The notes under the pieces are model-generated. The model made no database searches, was not told where the DNA came from, and saw nothing but the letters and a program-made list of their open reading frames with translations. A program made the translations under genes and the position numbers. This document shows positions 23,764 through 50,051 of a stretch of DNA of 64,000 nt, in pieces. The stretch's first letter is position 1. Every line of letters starts with the position of its first letter. The stretch comes from Actinomycetales bacterium (lineage in GTDB: Bacteria > Actinomycetota > Actinomycetes > S36-B12 > UBA5976), in the NCBI GenBank assembly GCA_027484085.1, contig JAIXQF010000010.1, positions 1-64,000 on the forward strand, read 5' to 3'.

Positions 23764-23782
23764 ATGAATTAACCCGAAGGTT

Positions 23783-24895: not shown

Positions 24896-24897
24896 TC

Positions 24898-27700: not shown

Positions 27701-27829
27701 AGCTGCCTTCTTTCAATTGCTACCATTTCGGGCGAAACGACAAGGTTTCGCAACCGAACTTACAACGAAATGGCATTGAATAATGGCAATTTACTTAAAG
27801 TAACAGTTTGCTAACGCGGAAAAACCCAA

Positions 27830-29080: not shown

Positions 29081-29159
29081 AGCCTATGGACTTTGGCGAC
29101 TGGGTACATGTCAAGTCTCAAAAACAATGCTTTATCGAATTGATTGCACAGATTAAGAA

Positions 29160-30158
29160 TTAGAGGAAGTGGACTTCTTCAAAAGCGCCACCATAGGCTG
29201 GGGCCGCATTTACCCAAGCCTGTTTCGTTCTGGCATCGCCAACTAATCCCATAAACGAGTACATGTCTTCACGCCAGCGACCAAGCGTTATGCAAACCCC
29301 AGAATCCTTATCAAGCAACAGGTTCTTGATGTCTTCTGCAGTCTGCAAGCTTTCGCGATTGTCTTCGACTGCAGTCATGCGAGCGTAAGAACTTTCGGAT
29401 CCGGTGTACTCCCGAGTGAATGCATGGTTGGTGTGCCCGGAAACAACTGAATGCGTTGGTACATCAATTACTGCGTCGGCCGCCGCTTCCACCATGAACA
29501 AGTCTTTGTTATCCAACACCGTGTAGTTCTGACCAACCGCATGTGGAATCTCTCGGATGTATGCAATTGCATCAGCGGCAGTTGGTTGATGCAACGCACC
29601 GCGGGTTACAAAATCAACCGGCATGCCAGTCAAATTAATGGCAAGGTCTAATGCATTGACAACAACAATTACACCGTTTGAATTCATTCCCATGGTGGCA
29701 AGTGAGCCAGGATAAGTCGCTGCAACAACACTTAATCCAGATTTATCTTGTACATTTAAAACAGTTTGCAGTCCGTTGGTCCAATCGGGTAAATCCATGT
29801 TTTGCCCGGCAGATCGAGAACCTTCTCGAGTGATTGCAATCGCAGTGCATCCCATGCCACCGGTGAGCGCCCACGATTCATCCAACATGGAAAGAGCGGC
29901 TACCTGATACCAAGGCATGTTTGCTGCCTCGGCCATGGCTTCAAGTTCAGCAACTAAGTCTGGGCAATATCTTTCGGCTGTTTCCCAGCCACCAACTTCG
30001 GTTAAGCGATGAGCTAATTCTTCGGCGTCAACATCATTTTTACTGAAATGCAGCACCCATCGATTCCATGCAGTTTCAAGCAAACCTGAAAGCTGCTCGC
30101 CAATTTGGGATCCGCGTTGCGCGCCTGAACCAGATGCAGATACCAGGTTTAACGCCAT
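29160..30158 (-). CDS. C45-family Ntn hydrolase/acyltransferase-like protein
   Basis: A 332-residue protein of the acyl-CoA:6-aminopenicillanate acyltransferase (C45) family. The autoprocessing site is GMGCTAIAI, so Cys104 would become the new N-terminus after cleavage at Gly103-Cys104; AGQNMDLP and TMGMNSNGVIVVVNAL follow as expected. Relatives act on N-acyl amides or peptides. It starts ten bases after the urease-like alpha gene, so it is the last gene of that transcript, fitting an amide nitrogen role. The substrate cannot be told. Confidence 0.83.
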   Translation of the reverse strand: MALNLVSASGSGAQRGSQIGEQLSGLLETAWNRWVLHFSKNDVDAEELAHRLTEVGGWETAERYCPDLVAELEAMAEAANMPWYQVAALSMLDESWALTGGMGCTAIAITREGSRSAGQNMDLPDWTNGLQTVLNVQDKSGLSVVAATYPGSLATMGMNSNGVIVVVNALDLAINLTGMPVDFVTRGALHQPTAADAIAYIREIPHAVGQNYTVLDNKDLFMVEAAADAVIDVPTHSVVSGHTNHAFTREYTGSESSYARMTAVEDNRESLQTAEDIKNLLLDKDSGVCITLGRWREDMYSFMGLVGDARTKQAWVNAAPAYGGAFEEVHFL

Positions 30159-31859: not shown

Positions 31860-32533
31860 GATTCAAACCCCAAGTAGCCAAGCGAACGAGCCTTCGCAAT
31901 GGCAGATTCTTTTGCGCCCGGCGCATCTAGCGGTCCGTCAACCAATCCAGCAAAACCAATCAAGATGCGATTGCCTGTTATCGGAATCAAGTTCACAGAA
32001 ACTTCAACACCAGGTGGGAAGTCAACATGCTCACCAGCTGGAATGTAAAGATGTCGGCCGTACGATGCAGCACGATCAAATCGCAGTCGTGGATTAGCTT
32101 CAAAGAAATGCATATGGGTTGTAACAGATATTTGAATGTCGGATTGATTTACAACAGTTACCGTCACAAGGTCGGTCTTGGCTTCCTTGGCAAGTGGTAC
32201 TAATCGTGTAACTTGGCCTGGAACATCGTCATCCGTAGATTCAAAATCAACTACAACCAAGCGGCGGCCATCTGAAAACACTGCTTCGACCGCAATGCCA
32301 GTTAGCAGTGGGCCAACTCCGGGCAGCAACTCGTCACTTTTTACAGCAGTAAATCCTGCGTTAAGTGCAGTTGAGTGATCTGCGCCATCTCTGGCAGCTT
32401 CGATGACTGCATGAGAAATCAATGCAACGGCTTCTGGCTTATTGAGCTTTACACCGCGCAGTCGTCGCGACTGGGCAAGTTGTGCCACATTAAAAATCAG
32501 TAAGCGATCTAGTTCCGAAGGCGTTAACTCCAT
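31856..32533 (-). CDS. Fused urease gamma/beta-like subunit (UreAB)
   Basis: 225 residues joining both small urease subunits. Residues 1-100 are gamma (LTPSELDRLLIFNVAQLAQ, RGVKLNKPEAVALISHAV, VEAVFSDGRRLVVV); residues 105-210 are beta (VTVVNQSDIQISVTTHMHFF, EANPRLRFDRAA, GRHLYIPAGEHVDFPPG). The fusion is known from a second, orphan urease set in Streptomyces and some other bacteria. The stop overlaps the UreC-like start by four bases (ATGA), so they are translated together. Confidence 0.88.
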   Translation of the reverse strand: MELTPSELDRLLIFNVAQLAQSRRLRGVKLNKPEAVALISHAVIEAARDGADHSTALNAGFTAVKSDELLPGVGPLLTGIAVEAVFSDGRRLVVVDFESTDDDVPGQVTRLVPLAKEAKTDLVTVTVVNQSDIQISVTTHMHFFEANPRLRFDRAASYGRHLYIPAGEHVDFPPGVEVSVNLIPITGNRILIGFAGLVDGPLDAPGAKESAIAKARSLGYLGFES

Positions 32534-34298: not shown

Positions 34299-35942
34299 TT
34301 AAAGTTGAGACAACCCATAGGCAACGGCGTACCTGTGACCAAGTTTTCCAGCCACATTGCCGCGACCAATTCCGTTTATGCCGGGCACTTGACTCAGGAT
34401 TGGGATTAGTTCATCGTCTGCGACGGGGCCGCCAACAACAACCAAATTAAAGCCCGTCGAAGATACTCCAGCAATGTCAACACTTCGAATCAAGCGCGAA
34501 ACATTTGCTCCGATTGCGACTTGCTTTAGTGCTTGACGCATGATGCGCCATTCCGCAGGTTGTAAGTTTTGCCCAAAAGTTAGGTACCCAGCTGGACCAG
34601 GAGCAACCAACGAACCCATCGCAGATGCTGGATAAGGCTTTGATTCATCCACAAAAGCTTTGCTGCCATCTTCGGCGAGCAGTAAATGCGGGGATTCCAA
34701 CCGCTGTGCCGGTCCACGCTTAATCCAATCGGCCGCACCACGTGATGTGTTCAACGCAAAGGCAACCGCAGCAGTTAGTAACTCACCAGCACCAGCAGCC
34801 GATAACTCAACGTTGCTGATGAAATCAATAGTGCCACCACCAATGTCTAAAACGGCCGCATCTTTTGCCAATCCAGGAGTGCTGTGCGCACCTAACTTGG
34901 CAGCCTGCGCTTCGGATTGCGCCACGACAACTGGTACACCAAAAATCTCTGACAGATTATTGGGAGTGGTAATCGTCGTGGCCGCGAGCTGGGCCAATGC
35001 TAAATCTCGAGTATGTCCAACTTTTCGTAAGCCACGCTCTGCCAAAACCTTTGTGACATCAAATGCCCAAACGTCAGATGTTAAAATCAACTCAGAGAGA
35101 TTAAGTTGTGCAATGTCGCCAACTTTAGAATTGGAAATCTTTGTCACGGCTTCGAATAAGTCTTCAGTATCTCCATCGTGCCAGGTAACAAAGCCATTTT
35201 GACTTTCCACGTGAATTGTTGAATTTGCAAACAGCCCAATTACAACGGTTCGATCATCTCTAACCCAACGAACTATCTCGGGTAGTGATGAAGCCTCTTC
35301 TTCAGTTAGGTCGAGCGCAGCCCGAAGTGCCCAGATGTCAGTGGCGGTCTGAACCGCTGCACCTTGTGGCCGCACTTCCAAAAAAAGTTTTCTGGCACTA
35401 AGTGCAAGATCAGTATCCGCGCCGTCTACTACCGGCAGATCTTTTTCCATACGTTTTGCAATCAGTACCGCTTCGTCATCAGCTACGACAACACCAACAA
35501 TCTGAGCTCCGCTGGAGATGGCTTTATTTATTCGGTTGGCTGCAACTTCATATCCGGTACCAGAGGGAACGATTGCAATTTCGGGAATGTCAGAAATACT
35601 TTCATTAGTAATTAGCCATGGATTTCCAACTGCCCAACCATCGCCAATCACACTTTGATGTGCAGTCTTAATGATCTGCAAGTTTCCAGTATTAGGAAGC
35701 GGCTCGTGAATTGTGGAAGTTGAAGTGAATACCGGACTCCATGGTGCAACTGAAACTTGCGAGACCATAATGCTGTGTTCGCGCTCAATGATTTGCAATA
35801 GCGAAAGAGCGGCTTTAACGGATGCCTCTGAGCCTTTGACGCCACGAGTCGGACGACGATCCCAAGCAATCGGTTCTGTTCCGTTTGAAATTACGATTTC
35901 AGTCGTTGAGTTTCCAATGTCTATCCCAGCGACAAGTTTCAT
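34299..35942 (-). CDS. Diol/glycerol dehydratase reactivase large subunit (DdrA-like)
   Basis: A 547-residue actin/Hsp70-fold ATPase starting MKLVAGIDIGNSTTEIVI, with a second nucleotide-binding segment DIGGGTIDFISN and the C-terminal VVVGGPVADDELIP. This is the DdrA/DhaF/PduG family, which swaps damaged B12 cofactor out of diol dehydratase at the cost of ATP. Only five bases separate it from the dehydratase small subunit. The small partner DdrB/PduH is not present in the window, so either it is elsewhere or this version works alone. Confidence 0.9.
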   Translation of the reverse strand: MKLVAGIDIGNSTTEIVISNGTEPIAWDRRPTRGVKGSEASVKAALSLLQIIEREHSIMVSQVSVAPWSPVFTSTSTIHEPLPNTGNLQIIKTAHQSVIGDGWAVGNPWLITNESISDIPEIAIVPSGTGYEVAANRINKAISSGAQIVGVVVADDEAVLIAKRMEKDLPVVDGADTDLALSARKLFLEVRPQGAAVQTATDIWALRAALDLTEEEASSLPEIVRWVRDDRTVVIGLFANSTIHVESQNGFVTWHDGDTEDLFEAVTKISNSKVGDIAQLNLSELILTSDVWAFDVTKVLAERGLRKVGHTRDLALAQLAATTITTPNNLSEIFGVPVVVAQSEAQAAKLGAHSTPGLAKDAAVLDIGGGTIDFISNVELSAAGAGELLTAAVAFALNTSRGAADWIKRGPAQRLESPHLLLAEDGSKAFVDESKPYPASAMGSLVAPGPAGYLTFGQNLQPAEWRIMRQALKQVAIGANVSRLIRSVDIAGVSSTGFNLVVVGGPVADDELIPILSQVPGINGIGRGNVAGKLGHRYAVAYGLSQL

Positions 35943-35947
35943 AAGGA

Positions 35948-36313
35948 CTATTTTGCGGTAAGTCCACGGCGAGCGTAGACATCTGCCGCCTGGCGAAACA
36001 ATTCAGCGTTCTTGATAGCGCCGATCGCCATCAAGTCGTCAGCTATCTGCATCAATTCTTGGGAACTTGATCTACCTGGGCGAAGTGCATCGTAATAACG
36101 CAAAACTTCATCATCGGATAAGCCGGTTAATTCGGCCGCTCGCAAAAAGTTTTCGGCTAACTGGGAATTTCCATTCGTGCGGGCCACTTCTGCCTGGTGG
36201 GCCAGAGTGTTTGGATGGATCCGAACATCATCTAGTGTTACGTCGCCGCGCCGAATTGATTCGACAGTAACTTCAGAGACATTCTTGCCTGAAAATCCGA
36301 CTTGTGAACTCAT
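35948..36313 (-). CDS. Diol/glycerol dehydratase small (gamma) subunit
   Basis: 121 residues matching PduE/DhaE: TVESIRRGDVTLDDVRIHP, NFLRAAELTGLSDDE and YDALRPGRSSSQELMQIADD. The N-terminus begins right at the conserved core and lacks the roughly 20-residue amphipathic leader with linker that targets PduE into Pdu microcompartments. ATGA overlap with the large/medium fusion gene. With it and the fusion it forms an adenosylcobalamin-dependent dehydratase. Confidence 0.92.
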   Translation of the reverse strand: MSSQVGFSGKNVSEVTVESIRRGDVTLDDVRIHPNTLAHQAEVARTNGNSQLAENFLRAAELTGLSDDEVLRYYDALRPGRSSSQELMQIADDLMAIGAIKNAELFRQAADVYARRGLTAK

Positions 36314-38559
36314 AATGATTTCAACTCCAATACTTCTGGGGCTGCGTCAGTTACACAGTTACGTTCAATGGCAACTAGTGACACAACCTTCGTGTGGTAG
36401 CGCGCCTCAATCGCTTCATCGGAGTATGGATTTCGAACTGGTTCAGGTGTGGCGCCTTTTGCATGACGTCCCGCATTAATTCCCATCATTCGATAAAGCT
36501 CGCGAGTGATTGTTGGGGCAACAGAATAAAGCTCAAGGTTCGCTAGCGGAGCTAAGTCCCTGCGATGAATTAATGCAGTGCCCTTCGCTTGCAACCCAAC
36601 GCTGACACCAGATCCGGAAAGGCGAGCAGCTGTCAATCCGATCATGCCTAAGTCAAGTGAATCGTTAACTCGAACGATTCGCCCTACGCAGCCTTCTTCT
36701 TCTAAGCCCGCAAGAACTTCCTTAATAGCGTCAGCTACACTTAGCCCAGATAGTGTCACCCAAATATCTTTGCCTGTCGCAGGCGAGACCCCGATGACAA
36801 CATCACGGGGGTCGTAACTTACTTCCGCCGGGCCAGCGACAACAATGTTTTTGTTTTCAAATCCTTGCTGTTCTACAAGTAGGTCAGCAACCGAGCGTTG
36901 TTGTCGGATGGTGTCGATTTGCGCCTGTCTTTCCGGCGTTGGTTGATACCCAGTTCCTGGCCCAGAGTATTCATTTGGATCTGTCACTAATGACAACACG
37001 TTCATTTCTTCATCGAAGATTGCAGACGTCTGTAAGTAGTCGCCTGCAACCCGAGCTTTCAGCATGTCTAAGCAGCGTTGTGCTTCTAAATCAAAACCAT
37101 TCTCGGCAAGTGCAGCTATGACATCAAGCATGGTGACGTTTGTTTCCATGATTGTTCGAGCTGCAGTTAGAGGCAGCATCAAGTCGCCAGAAGATATGTC
37201 CTTAGAACCAGCCGCGTCAACGGCTTGATCGGCCCACTCGGCTGAAAAGTCCCCAAGACCTAGCCATGAGTAAACAGCGCTTACTGCATCTGTTGCCCGC
37301 CGACGTAATCGAGCCACTTCGATCTCATCGGCAGTCCGAAGTCCACCGTCAACACCCCAGTCGCGTTGCATTGCCAAGAAATCATCGATGTCTTCGGAAT
37401 TCCATTGGCTGGGACCGAACATATTGTCGTAGCGCTGGATCGAACCAAACCCACTATTAATAAAGTCTGAGCCACCAATGAATATCGGATGTGTTCGCGA
37501 AGTCCTACGTACATCAGATTCGCTCATCAATGCGTCATTACCCGTGCATGCTTCGAGATTTCGCAACATAACCATCACGTTCTCGGCCATTAGCGAGCGA
37601 ACACCACCCGGTACTGCACCTGCAACTGCTGCGGAATCAATGCCACCGTTCTGTACCCCTTGGGCACCGATGGCCCGTGCAAGTGCAACGCATCGAGCCT
37701 CAAGATAAAACATGCTGCATTTTTCAGCACCACCCATCAAGGCTTCAGAGCCGCCACCAGAAGTAACGCGCATCTTTATACCGCGACTTGCATATGCACT
37801 AGTTAGAAAAGCCTTGGACCATGGGGTGTCATCACCGTCAATAAAGATTTGTTCGGTGCCATAAAGTGAAACGGTTTCGGCGTATGAAACTAATCCACGC
37901 ATACCTAAAGCCAGTTCAGCAGATTCTTCGACCGAACATTGAACTAGAACACCGGGAGATCCAACTGCAGCGCCGATTGAAACTGCAACTGCGTTTGATG
38001 GTGCGTCAGCAGCAACTGGAACGGTGGTTTCAAGTTCCCGAAATCCAAATGCGGCTGCCGTAGCGGCGTCTGCCGCAAGTAAAAGTGGGTCATCGGATCG
38101 ATTAGTTACGTGCGCTTGATTACTTGGAGTGCGACGCGCGCGCATCTTGGTCATAGCAATTACTAATTCGGAAGCACTAAGGAGTGAAAGTACTTCCGCC
38201 AGTTTTGCTGGAGTCATTCCAGAGGCAAGTCGCACAATACTTTTTCGCGAATGATTCGGATCAACCAGTCTCCGCGCGAAGTCAGCGCTTTCTATTTCCA
38301 TTGCTTCTTGCGCAACACTTAGATCAATTCCATGTCGAGCAATGAACTCATCGATGGAATCAAAGTCGGCTTCGCTCCGACCATCCATTTCAACAATTCG
38401 TCCGTCAGTTATTAGCAATGACGGAGCTGGGTCATTCAAGCCATTGAACGCAACCAGACCCAACTCAGGTGCAGGTGTTGCAAACCCGTCGAGGTTGACG
38501 CGCTGTTCGTTCATAAAACGAAAGCGGCCAATTGGCTCGTTTGTTGTCATGCCTGACAT
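36310..38559 (-). CDS. Fused large-medium subunit of B12-dependent diol/glycerol dehydratase
   Basis: A 749-residue fusion: residues 12-560 are PduC-like alpha and about 590-749 PduD-like beta. Active-site residues known from Klebsiella diol dehydratase are all found: QAHVTN (His), RELETTVPVA (Glu), YAETVSLYGTE (Glu), GVQNGGID (Gln), CTGNDALMSESD (Asp) and DFINSGF (Ser). The beta part has DVVIGVSPATGKD and SGSGVSVGLQAKG. The enzyme turns 1,2-diols or glycerol into aldehydes and water with adenosylcobalamin. No encapsulation peptide is seen at either the N-terminus or the junction. ATG 38550 (ATGA overlap with the upstream gene) is an alternative start. Confidence 0.93.
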   Translation of the reverse strand: MSGMTTNEPIGRFRFMNEQRVNLDGFATPAPELGLVAFNGLNDPAPSLLITDGRIVEMDGRSEADFDSIDEFIARHGIDLSVAQEAMEIESADFARRLVDPNHSRKSIVRLASGMTPAKLAEVLSLLSASELVIAMTKMRARRTPSNQAHVTNRSDDPLLLAADAATAAAFGFRELETTVPVAADAPSNAVAVSIGAAVGSPGVLVQCSVEESAELALGMRGLVSYAETVSLYGTEQIFIDGDDTPWSKAFLTSAYASRGIKMRVTSGGGSEALMGGAEKCSMFYLEARCVALARAIGAQGVQNGGIDSAAVAGAVPGGVRSLMAENVMVMLRNLEACTGNDALMSESDVRRTSRTHPIFIGGSDFINSGFGSIQRYDNMFGPSQWNSEDIDDFLAMQRDWGVDGGLRTADEIEVARLRRRATDAVSAVYSWLGLGDFSAEWADQAVDAAGSKDISSGDLMLPLTAARTIMETNVTMLDVIAALAENGFDLEAQRCLDMLKARVAGDYLQTSAIFDEEMNVLSLVTDPNEYSGPGTGYQPTPERQAQIDTIRQQRSVADLLVEQQGFENKNIVVAGPAEVSYDPRDVVIGVSPATGKDIWVTLSGLSVADAIKEVLAGLEEEGCVGRIVRVNDSLDLGMIGLTAARLSGSGVSVGLQAKGTALIHRRDLAPLANLELYSVAPTITRELYRMMGINAGRHAKGATPEPVRNPYSDEAIEARYHTKVVSLVAIERNCVTDAAPEVLELKSL

Positions 38560-38981
38560 GCTCGATTGAAGACTTCAATTCCAGCTTGGGCGCACACTTG
38601 ATCTTCATCCCATGATCCGCCACTCACCCCGATGGCTCCGACAACGCGATCGCCATCCCAGCATGGAATTCCGCCAGCAAATGCAATGTAGCGACCATTG
38701 CCGTTTGCGCTCATGCCCGGTAAATCTCCTTCTGGAGCAACGCGGGCTCGCAATTCGCCCGTCTCAATTCGATTTGTAACTGAGGTGTAGGCCTTATCAA
38801 CGGCCAGATTAGGCCCGGCAAGTTCGGCACCATCCATGCGCTGAAAACTTAACAAGTTTGCGCCGGCATCTAATACTGCGATTGACATCGGTGCATTGAT
38901 TTCAATTGCTTTAGCTTTAGCAGCATTTGTCATTTCGACCGCTAGGGCTAAATCAATTTCCATTCGCTCAACTCTTGGCAT
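38547..38981 (-). CDS. GlcG/HbpS-family (DUF336) protein, PduO C-terminal-like
   Basis: 144 residues from ATG 38981, chosen because AGAAGGG precedes it and the ATG overlaps the acetamidase stop (TAATG); a nine-residue longer frame exists. It matches DUF336: LALAVEMTNAAKAKAIEI, PMSIAVLDAGANLLSFQRMD, GIPCWDGDRVVGAIGVSGG. The same domain forms the C-terminal half of PduO and the haem-binding HbpS. Its place directly before the B12 dehydratase suggests a role in cofactor handling or redox sensing, but that is inference. Confidence 0.85.
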   Translation of the reverse strand: MPRVERMEIDLALAVEMTNAAKAKAIEINAPMSIAVLDAGANLLSFQRMDGAELAGPNLAVDKAYTSVTNRIETGELRARVAPEGDLPGMSANGNGRYIAFAGGIPCWDGDRVVGAIGVSGGSWDEDQVCAQAGIEVFNRACQA

Positions 38982-40024
38982 TACTTGCCCTTCTGGTATT
39001 CGCGCCACTGCTGGGCCCGAGCCTGCATCTTGCGGTGCATTCCTTGCATTACATTCACACTACCCAAGTATTCTTTTGCGACCTTAGCGACCATTGTGTA
39101 ATTAGTGTCAACCACGTTGGCGACCGGAGTCAGCGCAGTTTGAGAGACAAACTGGTAACTATCTAATGTTGACTGGCCCGTTAATTCGCTAACCCAATGA
39201 ACCATTTGCGAATGTGCGATTCGGAAGGCATCTTCGAGTGGCTTAGTTGAGCCAGTAGTAATGATGTAATCATCTGATTCGATTCTTGGCCAAGGAGTTG
39301 GGGTTCCTTTTATTAAATCTAAAATCAAAACAGTGTCCATTGCGGTTTCAACGGCAACGCCGCAAGTCTCACCTTCACCTTGGCGAGCATGACCATCGCC
39401 AAATGAAAACAGTGCACCTTCAACGTTGACGCCCAGATAACAAGTGACGCCGGCGCGCATTTCCGGAGTATCCATATTTCCGCCCCAGTCACCTGGAGTC
39501 AGAGACGATCGAACTTCGCCAAGCGCCGGTGCTACGCCAACCGTGCCATGCATTGGATCAAGTGGCAGTGCTGCCGTGAATTTTGTATCAGCTGCGGCAT
39601 AACGAACTAAACGTTCTTGTAAATCCAATTCGTAAATCCAGGTTCGTTCTAAAAGTGCTGGTTGCAAAGTTGCAGTTGTCGCGGTGGAAGTAAGCGCACC
39701 AAAGAATGGAACCGTAGTACTTACACCCCAAGCTTCACGTGGCTCAATTGAAATGAAGTGAACGGCTAACGTGTCTCCAGGCTCTGCGCCTTCAACATAG
39801 AAAGGCCCAGTTTGCGGATTGAGAAATCGTGGGTCACAAACTTGCGTTGACATGTCGCTGGCTGATTTAACGCGACCACCAAAGCAGTCGAATGACCAAG
39901 AGTCAATAATGGCCCCTGGCCTTACGCTGACAACACCTTCGCGGCCGCCAAAAGTAAAGGCATGAGTGGCAGGGTCAGCATCTTCATCTGGTGTCCAATT
40001 ACAAATCTCAAGGTCAAGTGTCAT
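38981..40024 (-). CDS. Acetamidase/formamidase family protein
   Basis: A 347-residue FmdA/AmdA-type amidase. Landmarks are VYVEGAEPGDTLAVHF-like (FYVEGAEPGDTLAVHFISI), DWGGNMDTPEMRAGVTCYLG and FSFGDGHARQGEGETCGVAVE. It hydrolyses short aliphatic amides such as formamide or acetamide to ammonia and the acid. First gene of the dehydratase operon, which is odd because an amidase has no role in known diol pathways. Together with the urease-like and C45 genes downstream it suggests scavenging of amide nitrogen. Confidence 0.9.
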   Translation of the reverse strand: MTLDLEICNWTPDEDADPATHAFTFGGREGVVSVRPGAIIDSWSFDCFGGRVKSASDMSTQVCDPRFLNPQTGPFYVEGAEPGDTLAVHFISIEPREAWGVSTTVPFFGALTSTATTATLQPALLERTWIYELDLQERLVRYAAADTKFTAALPLDPMHGTVGVAPALGEVRSSLTPGDWGGNMDTPEMRAGVTCYLGVNVEGALFSFGDGHARQGEGETCGVAVETAMDTVLILDLIKGTPTPWPRIESDDYIITTGSTKPLEDAFRIAHSQMVHWVSELTGQSTLDSYQFVSQTALTPVANVVDTNYTMVAKVAKEYLGSVNVMQGMHRKMQARAQQWREYQKGK

Positions 40025-40084: not shown

Positions 40085-40121
40085 AAAAACTGGGTGCCAG
40101 CAATGCTGACACCCAGTTTTT
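40085..40121 (-). terminator. Intrinsic terminator between the APC permease and the acetamidase operon
   Basis: Stem AAAAACTGGGTG / CACCCAGTTTTT with inner CAGCA/TGCTG pairing. On the minus strand the stem is followed by a T run. It ends the permease message and separates it from the acetamidase/dehydratase operon, whose promoter must lie in the remaining 60 bases. Confidence 0.9.
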
Positions 40122-40130
40122 ATTTGAACA

Positions 40131-41711
40131 CTATGCGCGTTCGTGAGCTTCTTCCAGAGTCGTACGACCGATTTCTTCGTAGATTTCTGGATGCTTTGAC
40201 TTGACCCATAGGGCGTAAAGCAGACCGAAGATCAGAGTACCTGCAATCTCATATGGCAAGTACTTGACCATTAATGAGTTTGACTGGTAACCAGCAGCGA
40301 AGCCTGAACCAACAGCACTGAATAGAAGTGTCAATGCGTAGATCATGCCTGCGGCGCCAGCAAGAGGAGCAACCAAAGTGGTTAGAACATTGCCCTTCTT
40401 CTTCTTTTTACCCCAGAAGTAACCGATTACTGCAAATGAGCAGATGACCTGTACCACCAGAATGAACGCAGTTCCAACAAGTGATGGAACGGTGTAGATA
40501 ACACCGTATGGCAACAATGCTGGGTCTGAAGTTGCACCTTCAACTGCTGGATCTGATGTCCATGCAGTTGAGAAGTTTGCAAACAGCAGAACCATAACGA
40601 TGTTAAGAACCGTTACGACTGTTGATGCCACAGCAGGTGACTGATGTGTTGGGTGAGTGCTCGATAGCTTGTTGCGGATACCAGCAAATGGAAGTTCACG
40701 ACCAAGTGCAAATACGTAGCGAGAAGCTGCATTGTGGAATGCCATGGCGCAAGCAAATGAACCAATTACCAGAAGCACGCGGTATGTTCCTTCTGCAAGC
40801 GAACCTAGGTTTGCTTCAACTGGGACCAACCAAAGGTCAACTGGGTTTCCAGTAGATCCGGAAGCAACTTCTACAGAAGTCTTTGCACCGTTAGCAACAA
40901 CTGCCATCCAAGAAACGAATGTGTAGAAAACACCAAGTCCGATAACTGCGATCATTGTGGCACGAGGAATCACGTTCTTAGGATCTTTGGATTCTTCACC
41001 GTAGGCAGCAGTGGTTTCAAAACCAATCCATGACCAGAAAGCAAAGAAGATACCAAGTGCAGCAGTACCCGCAGCAACGCTAGATCCGAAAGCTCCAGCT
41101 TCTAGATTTGCAAATGCAGCCATTGGCGAAATGGTTTCTGAAACCATGAAGCCATCAGGTCCACCCTTGAAAAGTACGCTGAATCCGAAAGCTGCAAGAA
41201 GTAGAACTTCTGCAACAAGTGTGACTCCGAGTACGACTGCAGCAACAGAGATGTCAAAGTAAGTCAAAACCCAAATTAGGATCATGCCGCCGATTGCAAG
41301 AATCAGCCAGTTGACATCGATGCCTGCCATCGAACTCAAGGTGTTCGAAGCGAAGAATGAGAAACCACCGATTAAGGTACCTTCGAAAAGAATGTACGAA
41401 ATGGTGGCAAGTAGACCTGCAGCCATACCCCAAACTTGTCCAAGTCCTTGAGAAATGAATCCGTAGAAGGCACCAGCAGTTGTAACGTGCTTCGCCATCG
41501 CAGAGAAACCAATTGCGAAAATCGATAGAACGATCGTTGCAAATAGGAAGCCGGCAGGAGCACCGATTCCGTTACCCCAACCAACACCAACAGGCATGTT
41601 GAAGCTCATCGCAGTGATCGGCGCAGCATTTGCTACCGCCATAAACAAAACTGCTGTTAAACCAACAGCACCTTTGCGAAGGCCTTTTTGGCTTTCGTTA
41701 TTTGTCGACAT
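40131..41711 (-). CDS. APC-superfamily amino acid/amine permease of the BMC locus
   Basis: A 526-residue permease with about 12-14 helices. The N-terminal APC signature is visible in GLTAVLFMAVANAAPITAMS and GAFYGFISQGLGQVWGMAAG; FWSWIGFETTAAYGEESKDP is the conserved helix 6-7 region. It belongs to the amino acid-polyamine-organocation family. It is transcribed away from the microcompartment genes across a 360-base divergent region; RMM loci are known to include such a permease, which would bring in the amino alcohol or amine. Confidence 0.88.
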   Translation of the reverse strand: MSTNNESQKGLRKGAVGLTAVLFMAVANAAPITAMSFNMPVGVGWGNGIGAPAGFLFATIVLSIFAIGFSAMAKHVTTAGAFYGFISQGLGQVWGMAAGLLATISYILFEGTLIGGFSFFASNTLSSMAGIDVNWLILAIGGMILIWVLTYFDISVAAVVLGVTLVAEVLLLAAFGFSVLFKGGPDGFMVSETISPMAAFANLEAGAFGSSVAAGTAALGIFFAFWSWIGFETTAAYGEESKDPKNVIPRATMIAVIGLGVFYTFVSWMAVVANGAKTSVEVASGSTGNPVDLWLVPVEANLGSLAEGTYRVLLVIGSFACAMAFHNAASRYVFALGRELPFAGIRNKLSSTHPTHQSPAVASTVVTVLNIVMVLLFANFSTAWTSDPAVEGATSDPALLPYGVIYTVPSLVGTAFILVVQVICSFAVIGYFWGKKKKKGNVLTTLVAPLAGAAGMIYALTLLFSAVGSGFAAGYQSNSLMVKYLPYEIAGTLIFGLLYALWVKSKHPEIYEEIGRTTLEEAHERA

Positions 41712-42071
41712 TCATTCGACCCTTTCGTTGTAATGCCGGGGAGCTCCCGGCATTTTCACTTAAGCCGTGGGTGACCTGAGTCACACGGTTGGAATGACTT
41801 TGCCAGAAGATGCACCCCAAAACAACGAAATTGAGATTGTTTTTGAAACTTTTTGGTTAACAGATTTTGATTTTTGGTCTAAATGAGGCCACAAATATCT
41901 CTAAAATTCAGCCCACAAGTCATAATTCCCAATGATTGCAAGGGTTTTATTGTTAAACCAAAATTCAACCAAAAGTTGCTAAAAGGTATGGTCATTTGGT
42001 CTAATTTTATGTAATCATTGAGATAGCGAATTAGGAATTTGATTCCACAAAGCACTCAGAAAGGGTTCGGG
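41712..42071. promoter_or_regulatory. Divergent promoter region of the permease and microcompartment operons
   Basis: A 360-base AT-rich intergenic region with no gene seen. The 10-base sequence TTTGGTCTAA occurs twice in direct orientation, at 41873-41882 and 41995-42004. TGGTCTA is the left half of the palindrome bound by several GntR regulators of the HutC type (TGGTCTAGACCA), and a HutC/UTRA-type GntR regulator is encoded at 49260. Nearby AACCAAAATTCAACCAAAA could provide further half-sites. These are candidate operators; promoters themselves could not be placed with confidence. Confidence 0.45.
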
Positions 42072-43382
42072 ATGACACAAGAAAATACAGCAGCACCCGA
42101 ATTTGATTACGGACTGTTTTCATATGACTCCAAAGAGCAGATGCTCGATAAGTCCAAAGAGTTTTGGAACCCAGGCAAAACCCAATTCTGGATTGACTCT
42201 GGAGTTCCGTTAGTAATCGATCGCCGTGAAGAGTACTTCATTTATGACATGTCAGGTAAGCGCCTAATTGATGCTCATTTAAATGGTGGAACATACAACT
42301 TAGGTCACCGAAATCCTGAAGTGGTTCAAGCCGTAACGATGGCTATGCAGCATTTTGATATTGGCAATCACCACTTTCCATCGCTGGCACGTACTGCACT
42401 GGCAGAAGCTTTAATCAAGACCGCACCTTCTGGATTAAGCAAAGTCATCTACGGCTCCGGTGGTGGCGAGGCAATCGACATTGCGCTAAAGACTGCGCGT
42501 CATGCTACGCAAAAGCGCAAAATCGTCTCGATTATCAAGGCCTATCACGGTCACACCGGACTTGCAGTTGGAACCGGTGACGATCGCTTCTCAAAGCTTT
42601 TCCTTTCTGATCGCCCAGAAGAATTTCCACATGTGCCATTCAATGACTTAGAAGCTATGGAAGATGCATTACGTGGCCGCGATGTGGCTGCAGTAATTAT
42701 GGAAACGATTCCAGCTACTTATGGCTTCCCACTTCCGAACCCAGGTTACTTAGAAGCAGTGAAGGCGCTATGTGAAAAATACGACGCTTTATATATTGCA
42801 GATGAAGTGCAAACCGGCTTAATGCGTACTGGCGAACTTTGGGGAATCACCAAGCATGGAATTACTCCAGACATACTTGTCACCGGCAAGGGCATCTCGG
42901 GTGGTTTGTACCCGATTGCCGCAGTACTAGCTACCGAAAAAGCCGCTGGTTGGTTAAACGAAGATGGCTTCGGACACATTTCAACTTTCGGGGGCGCCGA
43001 ACTTGGCTGTATTGCAGCACTAAAGACTTTGGAAATTTGCTCACGTGAAGAAACTCGTTCAATGGTTCACTACATCGCTGACTATGTAGGCAAGCGCCTT
43101 GCTGAGGTTCAGGCAACTTATCCAGATTGGTTTGTTGGCATCCGCCAAAATGGTGTGATTCTTGGTCTGGAATTTGCTCACCCACAAGGTGCCAAGTACG
43201 TAATGCGCCACTTGTATGAAAACGGTGTGTGGGCGATCTTCTCAACACTTGATCCGCGGGTACTCCAATACAAGCCGGGAATTTTGCTGAAACCTGAAGT
43301 TGCCGAAGAAATGCTGGACCGCACTGAGCTAGCAATCGGAAAAGCTTATGCAGAAATTCGTAACGAGCGGAGGTCAGCATGA
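42072..43382 (+). CDS. Class III aminotransferase/phospho-lyase of the RMM microcompartment
   Basis: 436 residues from ATG 42072, preceded by AGAAAGGG at good distance; a 33-base longer frame would need TTG. PLP-fold landmarks are YGSGGGEAIDIALKTARHA, IADEVQTGLMRTGELWG and the PLP lysine Lys273 in VTGKGISGGLYPIAAV. RMM loci always carry such an enzyme. Because a kinase is in the same operon, it may act as an amino-alcohol-phosphate phospho-lyase, as ethanolamine-phosphate phospho-lyase does, yielding an aldehyde, ammonia and phosphate. No encapsulation helix is seen at either end. ATGA overlap with the aldehyde dehydrogenase. Confidence 0.88.
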   Translation: MTQENTAAPEFDYGLFSYDSKEQMLDKSKEFWNPGKTQFWIDSGVPLVIDRREEYFIYDMSGKRLIDAHLNGGTYNLGHRNPEVVQAVTMAMQHFDIGNHHFPSLARTALAEALIKTAPSGLSKVIYGSGGGEAIDIALKTARHATQKRKIVSIIKAYHGHTGLAVGTGDDRFSKLFLSDRPEEFPHVPFNDLEAMEDALRGRDVAAVIMETIPATYGFPLPNPGYLEAVKALCEKYDALYIADEVQTGLMRTGELWGITKHGITPDILVTGKGISGGLYPIAAVLATEKAAGWLNEDGFGHISTFGGAELGCIAALKTLEICSREETRSMVHYIADYVGKRLAEVQATYPDWFVGIRQNGVILGLEFAHPQGAKYVMRHLYENGVWAIFSTLDPRVLQYKPGILLKPEVAEEMLDRTELAIGKAYAEIRNERRSA

Positions 43383-44967: not shown

Positions 44968-45567
44968 ATGGCAGAGCTACGGTCGTTCATCTATATCGAC
45001 CAAATGCAACCTCAAACTATGTGCTACCTAGGCTCATGGGTTAAGGGCGCTTTGCCACGGGCAAATATGGCCGCACAAGTCATCGAAGTTGCGCCGGGCT
45101 TGGACATCGAAGCATTAACTGACGTTGCACTCAAGCATGCAAATGTGCAGGCGGGAATTCTGTTTGTTGAACGTACTTTCGGTTACTTAGAGATCCATGG
45201 ACCGACTGAAGAAGTCCGCGCAGCAGGACAAGCGGTGCTATCAGCGCTAGGAACTTCCGAGTCCGAAGCAACAAAGCCAAAGATTCTTGCATCCCGCGTG
45301 GTGCCATCTGTTGATCAGCAGCATGCATTTTTAATCAATCGAAACAAAGTTGGTTCGATGATTCTGCCTGGCGAATCGCTTTACATTTTGGAAGTGCAGC
45401 CAGCTTCTTACGCAATCTTGGCAACTAACGAAGCGGAAAAGGCAACTGACATCAAAGTTGTTGACTACCGCATGATTGGTGCAACTGGACGCGTTTATCT
45501 TTCTGGCAAAGAAGCAAATGTTCGAGCAGCAGCTGAAGTTGCTGAAAGAGTTTTGAGTGACCGCTGA
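44968..45567 (+). CDS. Tandem-domain shell protein BMC-T (first copy)
   Basis: 199 residues with two BMC domains in a row. Domain one contains QAGILFVERTFGYLEIHGP and domain two NRNKVGSMILPGESLYILEV and MIGATGRVYLSGKE. Such proteins form pseudohexameric trimers in the shell facet, often with larger or gated pores. A second, divergent BMC-T lies 1.1 kb downstream. RMM shells are known to have two BMC-T types with one BMC-H and one BMC-P, and this locus has exactly this set. A purine-rich AGAGAAGAGAG precedes the ATG. Confidence 0.92.
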   Translation: MAELRSFIYIDQMQPQTMCYLGSWVKGALPRANMAAQVIEVAPGLDIEALTDVALKHANVQAGILFVERTFGYLEIHGPTEEVRAAGQAVLSALGTSESEATKPKILASRVVPSVDQQHAFLINRNKVGSMILPGESLYILEVQPASYAILATNEAEKATDIKVVDYRMIGATGRVYLSGKEANVRAAAEVAERVLSDR

Positions 45568-46055
45568 TGTCTGCAGATAACGAAATGCTCCGAGCGCTCG
45601 TGCGAGAAGCCTTGCGCGATGCCTTAGGTGGTGCCAGTGGGGCAAGCGACATTGCTAAAGCCTTATCTGGAAGTGCAGTATCTGCACCAAAACCTGCTCA
45701 GGTTGTCGAAGTAGTTTCCTTGGCAAATGATGCGCAAGTGCAGTCTTTCGTGCATCGCATTCTTGATTTAGCTGCCGATGCGAAGACTTTGAGTGCGTTG
45801 CGCCAAGGTGAAATTGTTTTTCAGTTAAGCGAACAGTCAAAAGTGAGCGGTACAGCAAATCCGGGTACCACGCGCGTTGAAAAGGGAGCTGTTACCGAGT
45901 CAACAATCAGAAAAGCGGCCGAGTCTGGGTCTACTTTGATTGTGGGACGCAAAGTTGTCGTTACCTCTCTAGCTCGCGACAAAGCGCGCGACTTAGGAGT
46001 AACGATTGTTAGAGAAAGTCAACAAGATAATCAGAAGGGATCGGTGATGCGCTGA
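45567..46055 (+). CDS. Microcompartment-associated protein with N-terminal encapsulation-like helix
   Basis: 162 residues without an assigned function. Residues 6-20 (EMLRALVREALRDAL) form an amphipathic helix like those used for encapsulation, followed by a Gly/Ala/Ser linker (GGASGASD, SGSAVSAPKPAQV) and a compact domain (45-160). The domain ends in AVTESTIRKAAESGSTLIVG then VVVTSLARDKARDLGVTIVRE, a motif seen at the ends of several microcompartment accessory proteins. TGATG overlaps on both sides couple it to the BMC-T and BMC-P genes. It may organise the core or join cargo to shell. Confidence 0.8.
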   Translation: MSADNEMLRALVREALRDALGGASGASDIAKALSGSAVSAPKPAQVVEVVSLANDAQVQSFVHRILDLAADAKTLSALRQGEIVFQLSEQSKVSGTANPGTTRVEKGAVTESTIRKAAESGSTLIVGRKVVVTSLARDKARDLGVTIVRESQQDNQKGSVMR

Positions 46056-46324
46056 TGTTAAAAGCGCGAGTCATCGGCAATGTATGGGCGACACGTCGTC
46101 TAACCGAGATTCCCAATGGGGCCTTTCTCGAAGTCGAAGTTGAAGGTGGCGCACACTTGGTTGCTTTCGACGTCTTGGGTTCCGGAATTGGGGAAAGCGT
46201 CTTAGTTTCAACTGGCTCAGTAGCAGCAGCTTGGTTCTCAGATGTAACACCTCCAATTGATGCTCTCATTATTGGTTCGATTGATGAGAACTCTAAGAGT
46301 TCTGGGAAGCACAGCGCTTCTTAG
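46055..46324 (+). CDS. Pentameric vertex shell protein BMC-P (EutN/CcmL family)
   Basis: An 89-residue EutN/CcmL protein. It starts MLKARVIGNVWATRRL, matching the family's GxVxAT strand, with VLGSGIGESVLVSTGSVAA and the C-terminal DALIIGSID. Five copies cap each vertex of the polyhedral shell. Translation is coupled to the upstream gene (TGATG). The tail SKSSGKHSAS is disordered. Confidence 0.93.
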   Translation: MLKARVIGNVWATRRLTEIPNGAFLEVEVEGGAHLVAFDVLGSGIGESVLVSTGSVAAAWFSDVTPPIDALIIGSIDENSKSSGKHSAS

Positions 46325-46406: not shown

Positions 46407-46691
46407 ATGTCAAGCAACGCACTGGGCTTGATCGAAACTAAGGGATATGTTGCAGCAGTTGCTGCCGCAGATGCCATGGTTAAGGCAGCCAATGTAACTA
46501 TTGTTGCGCGTGAAGAAGTTGGCGACGGCCTTGTTGCTGTTGTCATCGTGGGTGACGTCGGCGCAGTTAAGGCTGCAACAGACGCAGGTGCAGAAGCAGT
46601 TAACCAAGTTGGCGAACTAGTTTCACAGCACGTAATTCCACGTCCACATGCAGAACTAAGTAAGTACTTCAAAGTAGGCGAGTCCGCGTGA
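46407..46691 (+). CDS. Hexameric shell protein BMC-H
   Basis: A 94-residue canonical BMC domain: ALGLIETKGYVAAVAAADAM, GDVGAVKAATDAGAEA and the edge motif HVIPRPHAEL. The pore loop reads EEVGDGLV; by direct alignment to PduA, Lys37 becomes Glu37 and Ser40 becomes Asp40, so six acidic residues line the pore. PduA-type hexamers tile the shell facets and let small substrates through. It has the best ribosome site of the operon. GTGA overlap with the next BMC-T gene. Confidence 0.96.
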   Translation: MSSNALGLIETKGYVAAVAAADAMVKAANVTIVAREEVGDGLVAVVIVGDVGAVKAATDAGAEAVNQVGELVSQHVIPRPHAELSKYFKVGESA

Positions 46692-47344
46692 GTGCGGGCC
46701 CGCTCGTAGCGGGGCCCGAACTTCGCGTCTACTTGCTTGTTGAAGATCTTCAGCAGCAATTTGCTGCTTACATGAGCACACCGACGCGAGCCCGGGGTTA
46801 CCCTCCTTATGGTGGACAGCATTCGCTGATCATTGAGGTGGCACCCGGGCTTGCGATCGAGCGAGTAATCGATTTGGCGTTGAAGTCGGTCCCTGAAGTT
46901 GAGCCTGGCATTTTGTTCGTGGAACGACAGTTTGGTGTTTTAGAAGTGCATGCTTCTGACATTGAACTAGTGAAACGAGCTGGACAGGCAATCCTTGATG
47001 GCATCAGTGCTTCTGCGGCCGATCAATTACGTCCACGGATTCTTTACAGCGACATCATCGAAAACATCACCGATCAGCACGCGATCATCCTTAATCGAAA
47101 TAGACAAGCCTCAATGGTTATGCCTGGTGAGTCTTTGTTGGTTTATGAAATGACCCCAGCACTATTTGCAACTGTGGCAGCTAATGAAGCTGAAAAAGTT
47201 GCTCCAGATGTGACTTTGGTTGATGTTCAAATGATTGGCGCAGCCGGACGTGTTTACATGAGCGGCACAACTGAAAGTGTCACTAAAGCTCGTGATGCAA
47301 TCACCACGGCACTTGAGTCTGTTGTTGGGCGAGATCAAGGTTAA
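46688..47344 (+). CDS. Tandem-domain shell protein BMC-T (second copy)
   Basis: A 218-residue tandem BMC protein, beginning GTG inside the TGA of BMC-H. Landmarks parallel the first copy: LIIEVAPGLAIERVIDLALK, PGILFVERQFGVLEVHAS, NRNRQASMVMPGESLLVYEM, MIGAAGRVYMSG. The N-terminal extension before domain one (residues 1-45, with PTRARGYPPYGG) is longer than in the first copy and may plug or line the pore. The two BMC-T copies differ enough to have separate roles. Confidence 0.92.
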   Translation: MSAGPLVAGPELRVYLLVEDLQQQFAAYMSTPTRARGYPPYGGQHSLIIEVAPGLAIERVIDLALKSVPEVEPGILFVERQFGVLEVHASDIELVKRAGQAILDGISASAADQLRPRILYSDIIENITDQHAIILNRNRQASMVMPGESLLVYEMTPALFATVAANEAEKVAPDVTLVDVQMIGAAGRVYMSGTTESVTKARDAITTALESVVGRDQG

Positions 47345-47418: not shown

Positions 47419-48408
47419 ATGAGTGGGTATTCGAACGAACCTGCAAAGTTGCATGAGTTCGCAGTTGATGCGGTGGCAAAATTTGGGTATCCAAGTGATT
47501 CCAAAATCTCGCTGCTAAACATTTCCGAGAATGCGACATTCAAGGTAACCGACAGTACTTCGGGGAATGATTCAATCCTCAGGATTCATCGGCCGTTTTA
47601 TCACACCAAACAGGCAATCCAGAGTGAATTGGATTGGGTTCAAGCTTTGCGCGAAATTCAACTGGTGCGAACTCCGGCGATCCTGCCATCAGGATCAGGC
47701 GAGCAAGTCATTCTTGCCGAAGATTCAGCTGGTGAGCAACGCCATGCCGTGATGTTTGAATTCATGCCTGGGGTTGAGCCAACCGAAGATCGCTTAGTTG
47801 ATGACTTTAAAACTCTTGGTGCAATTACTGCGCGATTACATGATCATGCAAAGCAGTGGAAAGTTCCCAGCAACTTCTCCAGATTTACTTGGGATTTTGA
47901 GACTGCACTTGGCCCGAATGGCCACTGGGGATCTTGGCGCGATGGCCTTGCAATGGGCCCAAGTGAACTCGAGATTCTCGGCAGACTTTCGGACACTTTG
48001 GGGATTCGTCTAGAGCGGTTTGGAAAAAGTAAAGAACGTTTTGGCTTAGTGCATGCCGATATGCGTTTGGCTAATTTATTGGTGGCCGGAAGTGACGTAA
48101 CCGTAATTGATTTTGATGATTGCGGATTTAGCTGGTTTATGTACGACTTGGGATCTTCAGTTTCGTTTATTGAAGACCATCCATTGATACCTGAAATGAC
48201 ATCCTCTTGGGTAGACGGTTACCGCAGCGTAGCCAATCTCAGTAAAGAAGAGGAAGACGAGCTGCCAACCTTCATAATGTTTCGTCGCCTGTTGTTGGTT
48301 GCTTGGGTTGGCTCCCATCAAGACACCGATACCGGTAAAGAAATGGGAGCCAATTTCACCAAAGTAAGTTGCGAATTGGCCGAAAACTATCTGTCAAAGT
48401 TTGCATAA
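47419..48408 (+). CDS. APH-family phosphotransferase, predicted amino alcohol kinase
   Basis: A 329-residue aminoglycoside phosphotransferase/choline kinase-fold protein. Catalytic loop is LVHADMRLANLLV (the HxDxxxxN motif), followed by the metal-binding IDFDDCG. The N-lobe has LLNISENATFKVT and LRIHRPFYH. In RMM loci this kinase is thought to phosphorylate 1-amino-2-propanol (or a similar amino alcohol), setting up the phospho-lyase reaction. It follows the shell genes after 74 bases with AGGAGAG ahead of the ATG. Confidence 0.85.
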   Translation: MSGYSNEPAKLHEFAVDAVAKFGYPSDSKISLLNISENATFKVTDSTSGNDSILRIHRPFYHTKQAIQSELDWVQALREIQLVRTPAILPSGSGEQVILAEDSAGEQRHAVMFEFMPGVEPTEDRLVDDFKTLGAITARLHDHAKQWKVPSNFSRFTWDFETALGPNGHWGSWRDGLAMGPSELEILGRLSDTLGIRLERFGKSKERFGLVHADMRLANLLVAGSDVTVIDFDDCGFSWFMYDLGSSVSFIEDHPLIPEMTSSWVDGYRSVANLSKEEEDELPTFIMFRRLLLVAWVGSHQDTDTGKEMGANFTKVSCELAENYLSKFA

Positions 48409-48452: not shown

Positions 48453-49235
48453 ATGTTTACTTCAGTAAGTGGCTATTCCGTCGTGGTTACGGGTGGCACC
48501 AAGGGAATAGGTAAAGGCATCGCGCGAGTTTTCGCACGAGCTGGAGCAAACGTCCTAATTACCGGTCGAGATGAAGCCAGCGCAAAGTCTGCTTGTGCCG
48601 AACTCACTGGATTGGGCGGCGGCACTGTTACATATCTAATCGCTGAGGTAAGCAGTAAGTCAGATTGTGATCGTGTTGCAGCTACTGCAATCGAACGTAA
48701 TGGTGGCATTGACGTACTTTGCGCAAATGCAGGCATCTTCCCAGATTCGAAGTTAGCCACGATGTCCGAAGCAGATATGGATTTAGTATTTGGCACAAAC
48801 GTAAAGGGAACCATGCTTTCCGTGCAGGCATGTTTACCAGCATTAGAGAAGTCGGGGCATGGCCGAATCGTTCTCACTTCTTCGATCACTGGTCCATTTA
48901 CTGGTTTTCCTGGTTGGTCGCACTACGGTGCTAGCAAGGCAGCGCAGCTTGGATTTATGAGAACTGCAGCCATAGAACTTGCTCCTAAGGGCATAACGGT
49001 GAATGCAGTGTTGCCTGGAAACATCGCCACTGAAGGTTTAGCAGACATGGGACCGGAGTATCGCAAAGCGATGGAAGCTTCAGTTCCGCAGGGAAGACTC
49101 GGCGAAGTTGATGACATTGGTAATGCTGCTTTGTTTTTTGCAACTAAGGAAGCCGCATACGTAACCGGGCAAGCACTGGTTATTGACGGTGGTCAGATTC
49201 TGCCTGAATCGCTTGCGGCCCTTGAGGCAATGTAA
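48453..49235 (+). CDS. SDR-family amino alcohol dehydrogenase of the RMM type
   Basis: A 260-residue SDR: cofactor loop [22 protein letters not shown], catalytic Ser in [11 protein letters not shown] and [10 protein letters not shown] (YxxxK). RMM loci in Mycolicibacterium encode an SDR shown to be an S-(+)-1-amino-2-propanol dehydrogenase, making aminoacetone with NAD+. This gene is in the same position after the kinase, and has a strong site (AGGAGAAAAC) before ATG. It may provide an alternative branch or recycle NADH formed by the aldehyde dehydrogenase. Confidence 0.82.
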
Positions 49236-49259: not shown

Positions 49260-50051
49260 GTGAGCACAAATGAAGCTGACTTAGGTCGCACTGCCGAAGA
49301 AGTTCGGCAACGAATATTGGCAGAAATTAATTCTGGCCAGTTGCGAGCTGGGCAAAAGCTCGGTGCCGAAAGAGATTTAGCAAACGAATATCAAGTAAGC
49401 CGTTCCACTTTGCGACTGGCACTTACGGCACTTGAAGAAACTGGCGTGGTTCGCCGTCTGCCTGGAAGAGGTGGCGGAACATTTGTTTCACCAGAAAAAA
49501 TTGATCGAGATCTTTCGCAAATTGTCGGCGTCCCATCATTGCTAAGAGGGCAAGGATTCACGGCTGGAACCCGATTGATCAGCGCTTCGGTGATACCAGC
49601 GGATGCAAAGACGCAGCGAGCATTAGATCTGAGTGAGGGTGAACACATCTTTGATGTAGTACGTATTCGCCTTGCTGACAGTGTCCCAATCTCACTTGAA
49701 CATGCAAGATTCCCTGCTGAAATGTTTCCAGGTTTGCTAGAACGACCACTTGGAGAATCTCTCTATGAACTCTTGAGCAAGCATTACGAGACCACTCCCG
49801 ACGAAGCTGTTGAGCAGATTGATTTAGTAAACGCGACTTTGGATGAAGCCAGAATTCTCGAAGTTTCGCTCGGTGCACCGCTGCTTGCGGTAACTCGAAC
49901 CACCATGGACACTAAGGGCAGAAAAATCGAATATTCCCACGACCTTTTCCGTGGCGATCGAACTCGAATCACGGTTCGCACCAAGGGACGGCCCGCAACC
50001 CAAGGCCAACCTGGGGAACGCGGCAGAACTGTTGAACTAAAAGAGATTTAA
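49260..50051 (+). CDS. GntR-family regulator, HutC/UTRA type
   Basis: A 263-residue regulator starting with GTG. The winged helix-turn-helix spans RAGQKLGAERDLANEYQVSR to GVVRRLPGRGGGTFVSPEK; from about residue 95 the UTRA ligand-binding domain follows (IFDVVRIRLADSVPISLEHA, LLERPLGESLYELL). Such proteins usually sense a small molecule from the pathway they control. It is the likely regulator of the microcompartment operon, with TTTGGTCTAA repeats in the divergent region as candidate sites. Confidence 0.87.
   Translation: MSTNEADLGRTAEEVRQRILAEINSGQLRAGQKLGAERDLANEYQVSRSTLRLALTALEETGVVRRLPGRGGGTFVSPEKIDRDLSQIVGVPSLLRGQGFTAGTRLISASVIPADAKTQRALDLSEGEHIFDVVRIRLADSVPISLEHARFPAEMFPGLLERPLGESLYELLSKHYETTPDEAVEQIDLVNATLDEARILEVSLGAPLLAVTRTTMDTKGRKIEYSHDLFRGDRTRITVRTKGRPATQGQPGERGRTVELKEI

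Follow-up and report, generated by a model that had tools for sequence, protein, structure and literature searches.

Why should a B12-dependent diol dehydratase operon stand beside a bacterial microcompartment (BMC) locus, is its enzyme carried inside the shell, and is 1,2-propanediol its substrate? These questions are raised by a stretch of 64,000 nucleotides (hereafter the window; contig JAIXQF010000010.1 of the Actinomycetales assembly GCA_027484085.1), in which five minus-strand genes encoding an FmdA/AmdA amidase, an HbpS-like (DUF336) protein, a fused PduCD dehydratase, its small subunit PduE and a DdrA-like reactivase (Pfam and NCBIfam matches) diverge from a plus-strand RMM microcompartment operon. 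The reading favoured here, with somewhat better than even confidence, is that within this RMM2-type locus the fused dehydratase would work in the cytosol as part of an amine/amino-alcohol module, not as shell cargo, and would have neither 1,2-propanediol nor glycerol as its substrate.

RMM2 was defined by Axen et al. in 2014 (PMC4207490) as an RMM microcompartment locus with diol dehydratase genes on the opposite strand. The locus of the window is of this type, which as such has been known since then: its RMM core is complete (two BMC-T, BMC-P, BMC-H, acylating aldehyde dehydrogenase (AldDH), class III aminotransferase, APH kinase, SDR, permease and GntR regulator, so that the described gene set runs from permease to regulator), and diol dehydratase genes lie in the same locus on the opposite strand. 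The first-pass annotation is therefore wrong in stating that no diol dehydratase is known from RMM loci, and the idea of an unprecedented pairing is ruled out by the 2014 definition. Compared with RMM2 as described, the host is here a small planktonic actinobacterium, FmdA and HbpS-like genes are present, a predicted terminator stands between the permease and the dehydratase operon, and a urease-like/polyamine cluster follows downstream. The RMM2 definition also expects the RMM1 hydrolases to be absent; the FmdA amidase and an amidohydrolase-like gene, which may or may not be of that kind, adjoin the locus. Location of RMM2 on plasmids was also considered and dropped, since among plasmid records no RMM2 locus was found, the matches being classical enzymes and two alphaproteobacterial fused ones.

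What seems to be new, as judged from sequence, is the enzyme subfamily, which is fused, carries Asp at position 301, does without DdrB and is linked to amino-alcohol genes, not to the shell. Neither the fusion nor the pocket change nor the lack of DdrB comes up in the 2014 text on RMM2 (PMC4207490), and no paper on such a subfamily was found in a literature search that was incomplete and did not extend to supplements. Axen et al. (PMC4207490) gave two readings of the RMM2 dehydratase, namely that it is not used by the BMC or that the BMC is bifunctional with the dehydratase as a second signature enzyme. The question dates from 2014; the residues of the pocket, the lack of DdrB and the loci without shell bring it within direct reach of a single purified enzyme and a short list of substrates.

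The three dehydratase domains (large, medium and small subunit) are all present. Alignment to the Klebsiella enzyme obtained from a PDB search (Klebsiella oxytoca numbering is used throughout) shows that the catalytic and metal-binding residues Q141, H143, E170, E221, Q296, D335 and S362 are all kept. The first reading was right on this point, and overlooked the changed pocket residues and the absence of DdrB. In the window enzyme D308 stands at the position of Ser301 and Gln336 is replaced by Ala, the alignment around 296-301 being ungapped. Among 115 fused rows, which are related and partly redundant, Asp is found at 301 in every one, and position 336 is occupied by Ala in 94 of them, Ser in 12, Asn in 5 and Thr in 4; in the pair of fused enzymes from alphaproteobacteria, Asp at 301 is joined by Thr at 336. 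In contrast, Ser301 and Gln336 are kept by every one of the ten unfused enzymes set against them, namely those of Klebsiella, Citrobacter and Cetobacterium, five from actinobacteria and two from haloarchaea; plasmid records served as a source for this unfused comparison. Other class-defining changes of the fused enzymes include N150D, Y178D and H340E, and none of them gains Lys or Arg. In the Klebsiella enzyme the C3 hydroxyl of glycerol is directed at Ser301 or Asp335, and the S301A/Q336A double mutation raises the Km for 1,2-propanediol from 0.06 to 2.4 mM, about 40-fold (PMC7674605). Since Asp301 and a small residue at 336 stand where the C3-facing residues were, the substrate is probably neither 1,2-propanediol nor glycerol.

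The second peculiarity of the enzyme concerns its reactivation. DdrB is related to the medium subunit, with which it exchanges in the accepted model of reactivation; for this reason the alpha-beta fusion and the loss of DdrB may be understood as one coherent change, in which the fusion would make the usual exchange unnecessary or impossible and DdrA would renew inactivated cofactor without DdrB. No DdrB-like gene was found in the source genome, the sole PF02288 match being the fused protein itself. A profile made from two haloarchaeal DdrB sequences detected DdrB-like frames at 5/5 unfused actinobacterial loci, and at none of the 64 fused loci for which 5 kb or more of downstream sequence was available. 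DdrA is shorter than the 610-aa Klebsiella protein. The enzyme shares with Klebsiella PduCDE/DhaB the three domains, the catalytic and metal-ligand residues and a DdrA-type reactivase, and differs from it in the alpha-beta fusion, S301D, Q336A, the lack of DdrB and a very short PduE; the traits specific to classical 1,2-propanediol/glycerol enzymes (Ser301/Gln336, separate alpha and beta subunits, DdrA plus DdrB) are all absent.

Regarding the cofactor, adenosylcobalamin (AdoCbl) should be available from salvaged cobalamin, which is not evidence for the dehydratase in particular. A PduO-type adenosyltransferase lies 17 kb past the window end and occurs in 20 of 23 genomes of the genus, with or without dehydratase; no CobA-type adenosyltransferase was found in the source genome. 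A cobalamin riboswitch near the operon was looked for and discarded, as there is none in the window; one lies on another contig of the genome, which also encodes methylmalonyl-CoA mutase.

Gene maps of about 80 loci were sorted by neighbourhood. Shell genes are present at 36 loci, and at 12 others the kinase and/or the aminotransferase are seen without shell, although some of these end at contig ends; 5 more without shell are cut short or have shorter flanks, and 12 mycobacterial loci have neither within 10 kb. Clear shell-free loci with full flanks are L068, L077, L082, L084, L086 and L088, which together with L185 and L186 have the arrangement APC permease, class III aminotransferase, APH kinase, SDR and GntR plus PduCD-PduE. 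L186 and L185 belong to two of the four shell-free genomes of the class sample described below (G321 and G359, respectively), and no BMC-P was found anywhere in either genome; in the third (G303) a dehydratase fragment and the aminotransferase share one contig. In a tree of 113 large subunits the shell-free loci fall in several separate clades, with shell-linked rows among their relatives, so it appears that shell and dehydratase parted several times and that kinase and aminotransferase stayed. The same company is found on plasmids of Agrobacterium cucumeris and Shinella zoogloeoides, where a fused dehydratase (48% identity) lies in same-direction operons with PduE, ABC transporter parts, SDR, phosphotransferase, class III aminotransferase and GntR, and with no shell gene annotated. 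The RMM AldDH is usually missing from shell-free loci. It was claimed earlier that both pathways could converge on this dehydrogenase; such a convergence is not a conserved requirement, and with the altered pocket it is also less certain that the product is propionaldehyde formed from 1,2-propanediol.

Loci of the mycobacterial branch (L094-L110) carry the fused dehydratase and lack RMM genes within 10 kb. Throughout this branch position 336 holds Ser or Thr; the neighbours at L099 are an APC permease and a PucR regulator.

It could be thought that the enzyme is an ordinary diol or glycerol dehydratase, whose substrate is unchanged, whose tolerated changes at 301 and 336 mean little, and whose aldehyde, made in the cytosol, reaches the RMM AldDH. 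This is the strongest of the competing explanations, and still a rather unlikely one. All catalytic and metal-ligand residues are conserved, propionaldehyde would give propionyl-CoA in a genome that has methylmalonyl-CoA mutase, both uses were considered by Axen et al. (PMC4207490), and Klebsiella S301A/Q336A remains active (PMC7674605). However, that activity is kept at the cost in Km given above, and Asp301 is invariant, goes with the fusion every time and is absent from all unfused enzymes compared; the frequent lack of AldDH in shell-free loci is a further objection. Paracoccus yeei TT13 grows on 1,2-propanediol, which has been cited together with its RMM2 locus; this was set aside as proof of the substrate, as the original authors of the genome attribute the growth to a lactate route and infer that there is no pdu operon. 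The pocket residues, the lack of DdrB and the shell-free loci are a warning that both the annotation as propanediol/glycerol dehydratase and the description of RMM2 as a 1,2-propanediol pathway may be wrong.

Encapsulated PDU dehydratases are recognised by N-terminal leaders on PduD and PduE, and these are missing here. The match of PduE begins at position 59 of the 173 of the PduE model, which confirms that the usual leader is lacking, and the leader is absent from shell-linked and shell-free loci alike. Similarly, the N-termini of PduCD and the segment at the PduC/PduD junction look alike with and without shell, so that the first-pass view that neither carries a targeting peptide holds, and the comparison of dehydratase N-termini that it had proposed shows no difference. 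A hidden encapsulation peptide at the junction was considered and rejected, since the segment is conserved in shell-free loci too and hence is not shell-specific. On the other side of the locus, amphipathic helices were detected at the C-terminus of AldDH and the N-terminus of the small protein at 45567..46055, by a crude moment scan in which PduE and SDR score too. Because no targeting leader is present and the linkage persists without shell, the dehydratase is taken to be cytosolic. The description of the operon as "beside, not inside" the microcompartment is thus supported by the absent leaders and by shell-free loci that keep the dehydratase with kinase, aminotransferase and SDR, and it agrees with the 2014 authors.

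Transcription points in the same direction within the window lineage. A hairpin at 40085-40121, which should end transcription of the permease before the dehydratase operon, is present in planktonic relatives, and both-side changes occur at 4/16 pairs (eight sequences). By this predicted terminator the operon is a separate transcription unit in that lineage. As regards the co-regulation raised by the first-pass annotation, the part that can be read from sequence is this conserved separation of APC permease and dehydratase operon. At L065, L066, L072, L086, L088 and L192 no such hairpin was found and the APC-FmdA gap is 2-31 bp.

A bifunctional microcompartment, with the dehydratase packaged in the RMM2 shell and AldDH common to the aminotransferase route, is the alternative proposed by Axen et al. 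(PMC4207490), and is considered here improbable. Physical linkage and co-occurrence are strong, and leaderless enzymes can enter a shell by binding a partner. Nevertheless no leader is seen on PduE, on the PduCD N-terminus or at the junction, these ends are the same in shell-free loci, the linkage survives loss of the shell, and transcription is predicted to be separate. The locus resembles the PDU microcompartment in having a B12 dehydratase adjoining BMC genes, and departs from it in the missing leaders, the other shell and core genes and the separate divergent operon. With RMM1 it shares kinase, SDR, aminotransferase, AldDH and shell proteins, unlike RMM1 it has dehydratase genes. For the kinase and SDR there are solved relatives: 6ef6, the RMM kinase of M. 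smegmatis, and 6ci8/6ci9, the RMM dehydrogenase of the same species.

Returning to the cytosolic module, the plus-strand RMM operon would degrade an amino alcohol through kinase, pyridoxal phosphate (PLP) lyase/aminotransferase and AldDH, and the fused alpha-beta AdoCbl dehydratase encoded on the other strand would work outside the shell in the same amine/amino-alcohol catabolism. To judge from the family and the conserved catalytic residues, AdoCbl would yield a 5'-deoxyadenosyl radical, hydrogen would be taken from C1, the C2 hydroxyl would migrate, and loss of water would leave an aldehyde. Asp301 and the small residue 336, in place of residues facing C3, would suit a vicinal diol that bears another polar group, which may be cationic. 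That this group is an amine is a guess which fits the acidic residue and the amine-related neighbours (the APC permease and, near L042 and L048, amine-type transporters and a GCV_T/DAO protein). The sugar-type ABC transporter of the alphaproteobacteria would indicate a polyol-like molecule, and an amino-polyol would satisfy both. A more specific proposal, which is tentative, is that the fused Asp301 enzymes of actinobacteria and alphaproteobacteria form a subfamily for an amine-bearing 1,2-diol (e.g. 3-amino-1,2-propanediol or a related compound); together with amino-alcohol kinase and PLP lyase they would make up a module independent of the shell, RMM shells having been gained or lost several times. 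If true, the substrate of this subfamily would be one that has so far not been assigned to B12 dehydratases of the family.

Direct deamination of 1-amino-2-propanol or a similar vicinal amino alcohol, as in ethanolamine ammonia-lyase, would give an aldehyde without ATP. The steady presence of an amino-alcohol kinase, an aminotransferase and an APC permease alongside fits it, as do the new acidic residues S301D, N150D, Y178D and H340E in the absence of any class-defining gain of Lys or Arg. It is nonetheless quite unlikely, since residue 301 faces C3, whereas the C1/C2 groups are bound by His143, Glu170, Asp335 and the metal. These are all unchanged, and an adaptation to ammonia release would more likely alter them.

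Several points weigh against the cytosolic module acting on a different substrate. Partner-mediated packaging, as mentioned, needs no leader; the mycobacterial branch carries the fused enzyme without nearby kinase or aminotransferase, which shows that the module can be done without; read-through at the terminator is possible, and the short APC-FmdA gaps of other clades suggest co-transcription with the permease. Besides, Asp301 could hydrogen-bond a hydroxyl, so that glycerol or other polyols may be substrates, and the alignment rows are not independent.

Co-occurrence with the shell was counted in samples of increasing breadth. In the genus (23 genomes), 12 have dehydratase and BMC-P, 3 BMC-P only, 1 a partial dehydratase only and 7 neither (Fisher p 0.006); the 20 genomes of the family's seven other genera all lack both. 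In the class sample of 394 genomes, tabulated by hand, fused dehydratase and BMC-P coincide in 21, 4 have only the former, 9 only the latter and 360 neither (p 4.5e-24), that is, the BMC vertex gene is found in 21/25 fused-dehydratase genomes and in 9/369 others. For the RMM-type aminotransferase, scored at E below 1e-200, the corresponding figures are 22 with both, 3, 4, and 365 with neither (p 5e-29). The conservation of the pairing, which was to be checked, is therefore clear in the class and in the genus. The suspicion that the dehydratase might be widespread without RMM genes finds no support in the genus, where 12/13 have BMC-P, but does find some in the 12 mycobacterial loci. That unrelated neighbours came together by chance is hardly credible and is ruled out at the level of gene association: the mycobacterial branch and the sister genomes G022, G024 and G036 (incomplete, with BMC-P and no dehydratase) would agree with it, but the class co-occurrence, a synteny kept despite differing gene orders and the alphaproteobacterial operons do not.

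Some taxon names in these samples deserve caution. The dehydratases of L042, L043 and L048, on contigs titled Gammaproteobacteria or marine bacterium, nest within the planktonic actinobacterial clade, which suggests horizontal transfer or misbinned contigs. L035, L049, L050 and L108, titled Bifidobacterium breve, are 75-92% identical to freshwater actinobacterial loci, and the names of these assemblies are probably wrong. An RMM2 locus on a contig titled Spirochaetaceae (L083) stands among Nocardioidaceae-like rows, by transfer or misbinning.

The features of the locus are collected in the table. The source genome comprises 1.8 Mb in 12 contigs, and the closest relatives with a name are metagenome-assembled genomes, mostly lake-derived, under the titles Candidatus Nanopelagicales or Actinobacteria. 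All five dehydratase-side genes were read correctly in the first-pass annotation, and since their ends overlap slightly or nearly so, they seem to form one operon. From the FmdA start there are 2.0 kb to the first RMM gene, with the permease in between, and 4.9 kb to the nearest shell gene (the first BMC-T).

Table. Features of the RMM2-type locus, in window positions
Feature	Position	Strand	Basis
DdrA-like reactivase large subunit, 547 aa, DDR and DDR_swiveling domains	34299..35942	-	domain matches
PduE small subunit (Dehydratase_SU), 121 aa, no targeting leader	35948..36313	-	domain match
Fused PduC-PduD dehydratase, 749 aa	36310..38559	-	Dehydratase_LU 768 bits, Dehydratase_MU 86 bits
HbpS-like/DUF336 protein	38547..39008	-	related to PduO C-terminal domain (5cx7) and EfgA (6bws)
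FmdA/AmdA acetamidase/formamidase family protein	38981..40024	-	domain match
Predicted intrinsic terminator hairpin with U-run, between APC permease and FmdA	40085..40121	-	RNA -27.1 kcal/mol, z -8.2, covarying stem
APC-family amine/amino acid permease, regular RMM neighbour	40131..41711	-	domain match; Axen 2014
Class III aminotransferase-fold PLP enzyme (RMM)	42039..43382	+	
Acylating aldehyde dehydrogenase (RMM core), amphipathic C-terminal helix	43379..44950	+	
BMC-T shell protein	44968..45567	+	
RMM hypothetical protein, amphipathic N-terminal helix, possible encapsulation peptide	45567..46055	+	
BMC-P vertex protein	46055..46324	+	
BMC-H shell protein	46407..46691	+	
Second BMC-T shell protein	46688..47344	+	
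APH-fold kinase	47419..48408	+	closest solved relative 6ef6 (E 3e-89)
SDR	48453..49235	+	closest solved relatives 6ci8/6ci9 (E 4e-99)
GntR/UTRA regulator	49260..50051	+	

A gene similar to the HbpS-like one adjoins dehydratases in other phyla, and the nearness of its product to EfgA and the PduO C-terminal domain makes aldehyde sensing or cofactor handling possible roles. Downstream of the dehydratase operon, a urease-like UreAB fusion and UreC (30168-32533) are kept across the genus; the flap region of UreC reads, by eye, IISAHGMN instead of the usual CHH motif, no accessory genes are seen adjoining, and the enzyme may not be a normal urease. The same minus-strand cluster continues at 22498-30158 with a C45-type acyltransferase/hydrolase, a DAO-type oxidoreductase and a polyamine-type ABC transporter with two binding proteins, and is syntenic in relatives.

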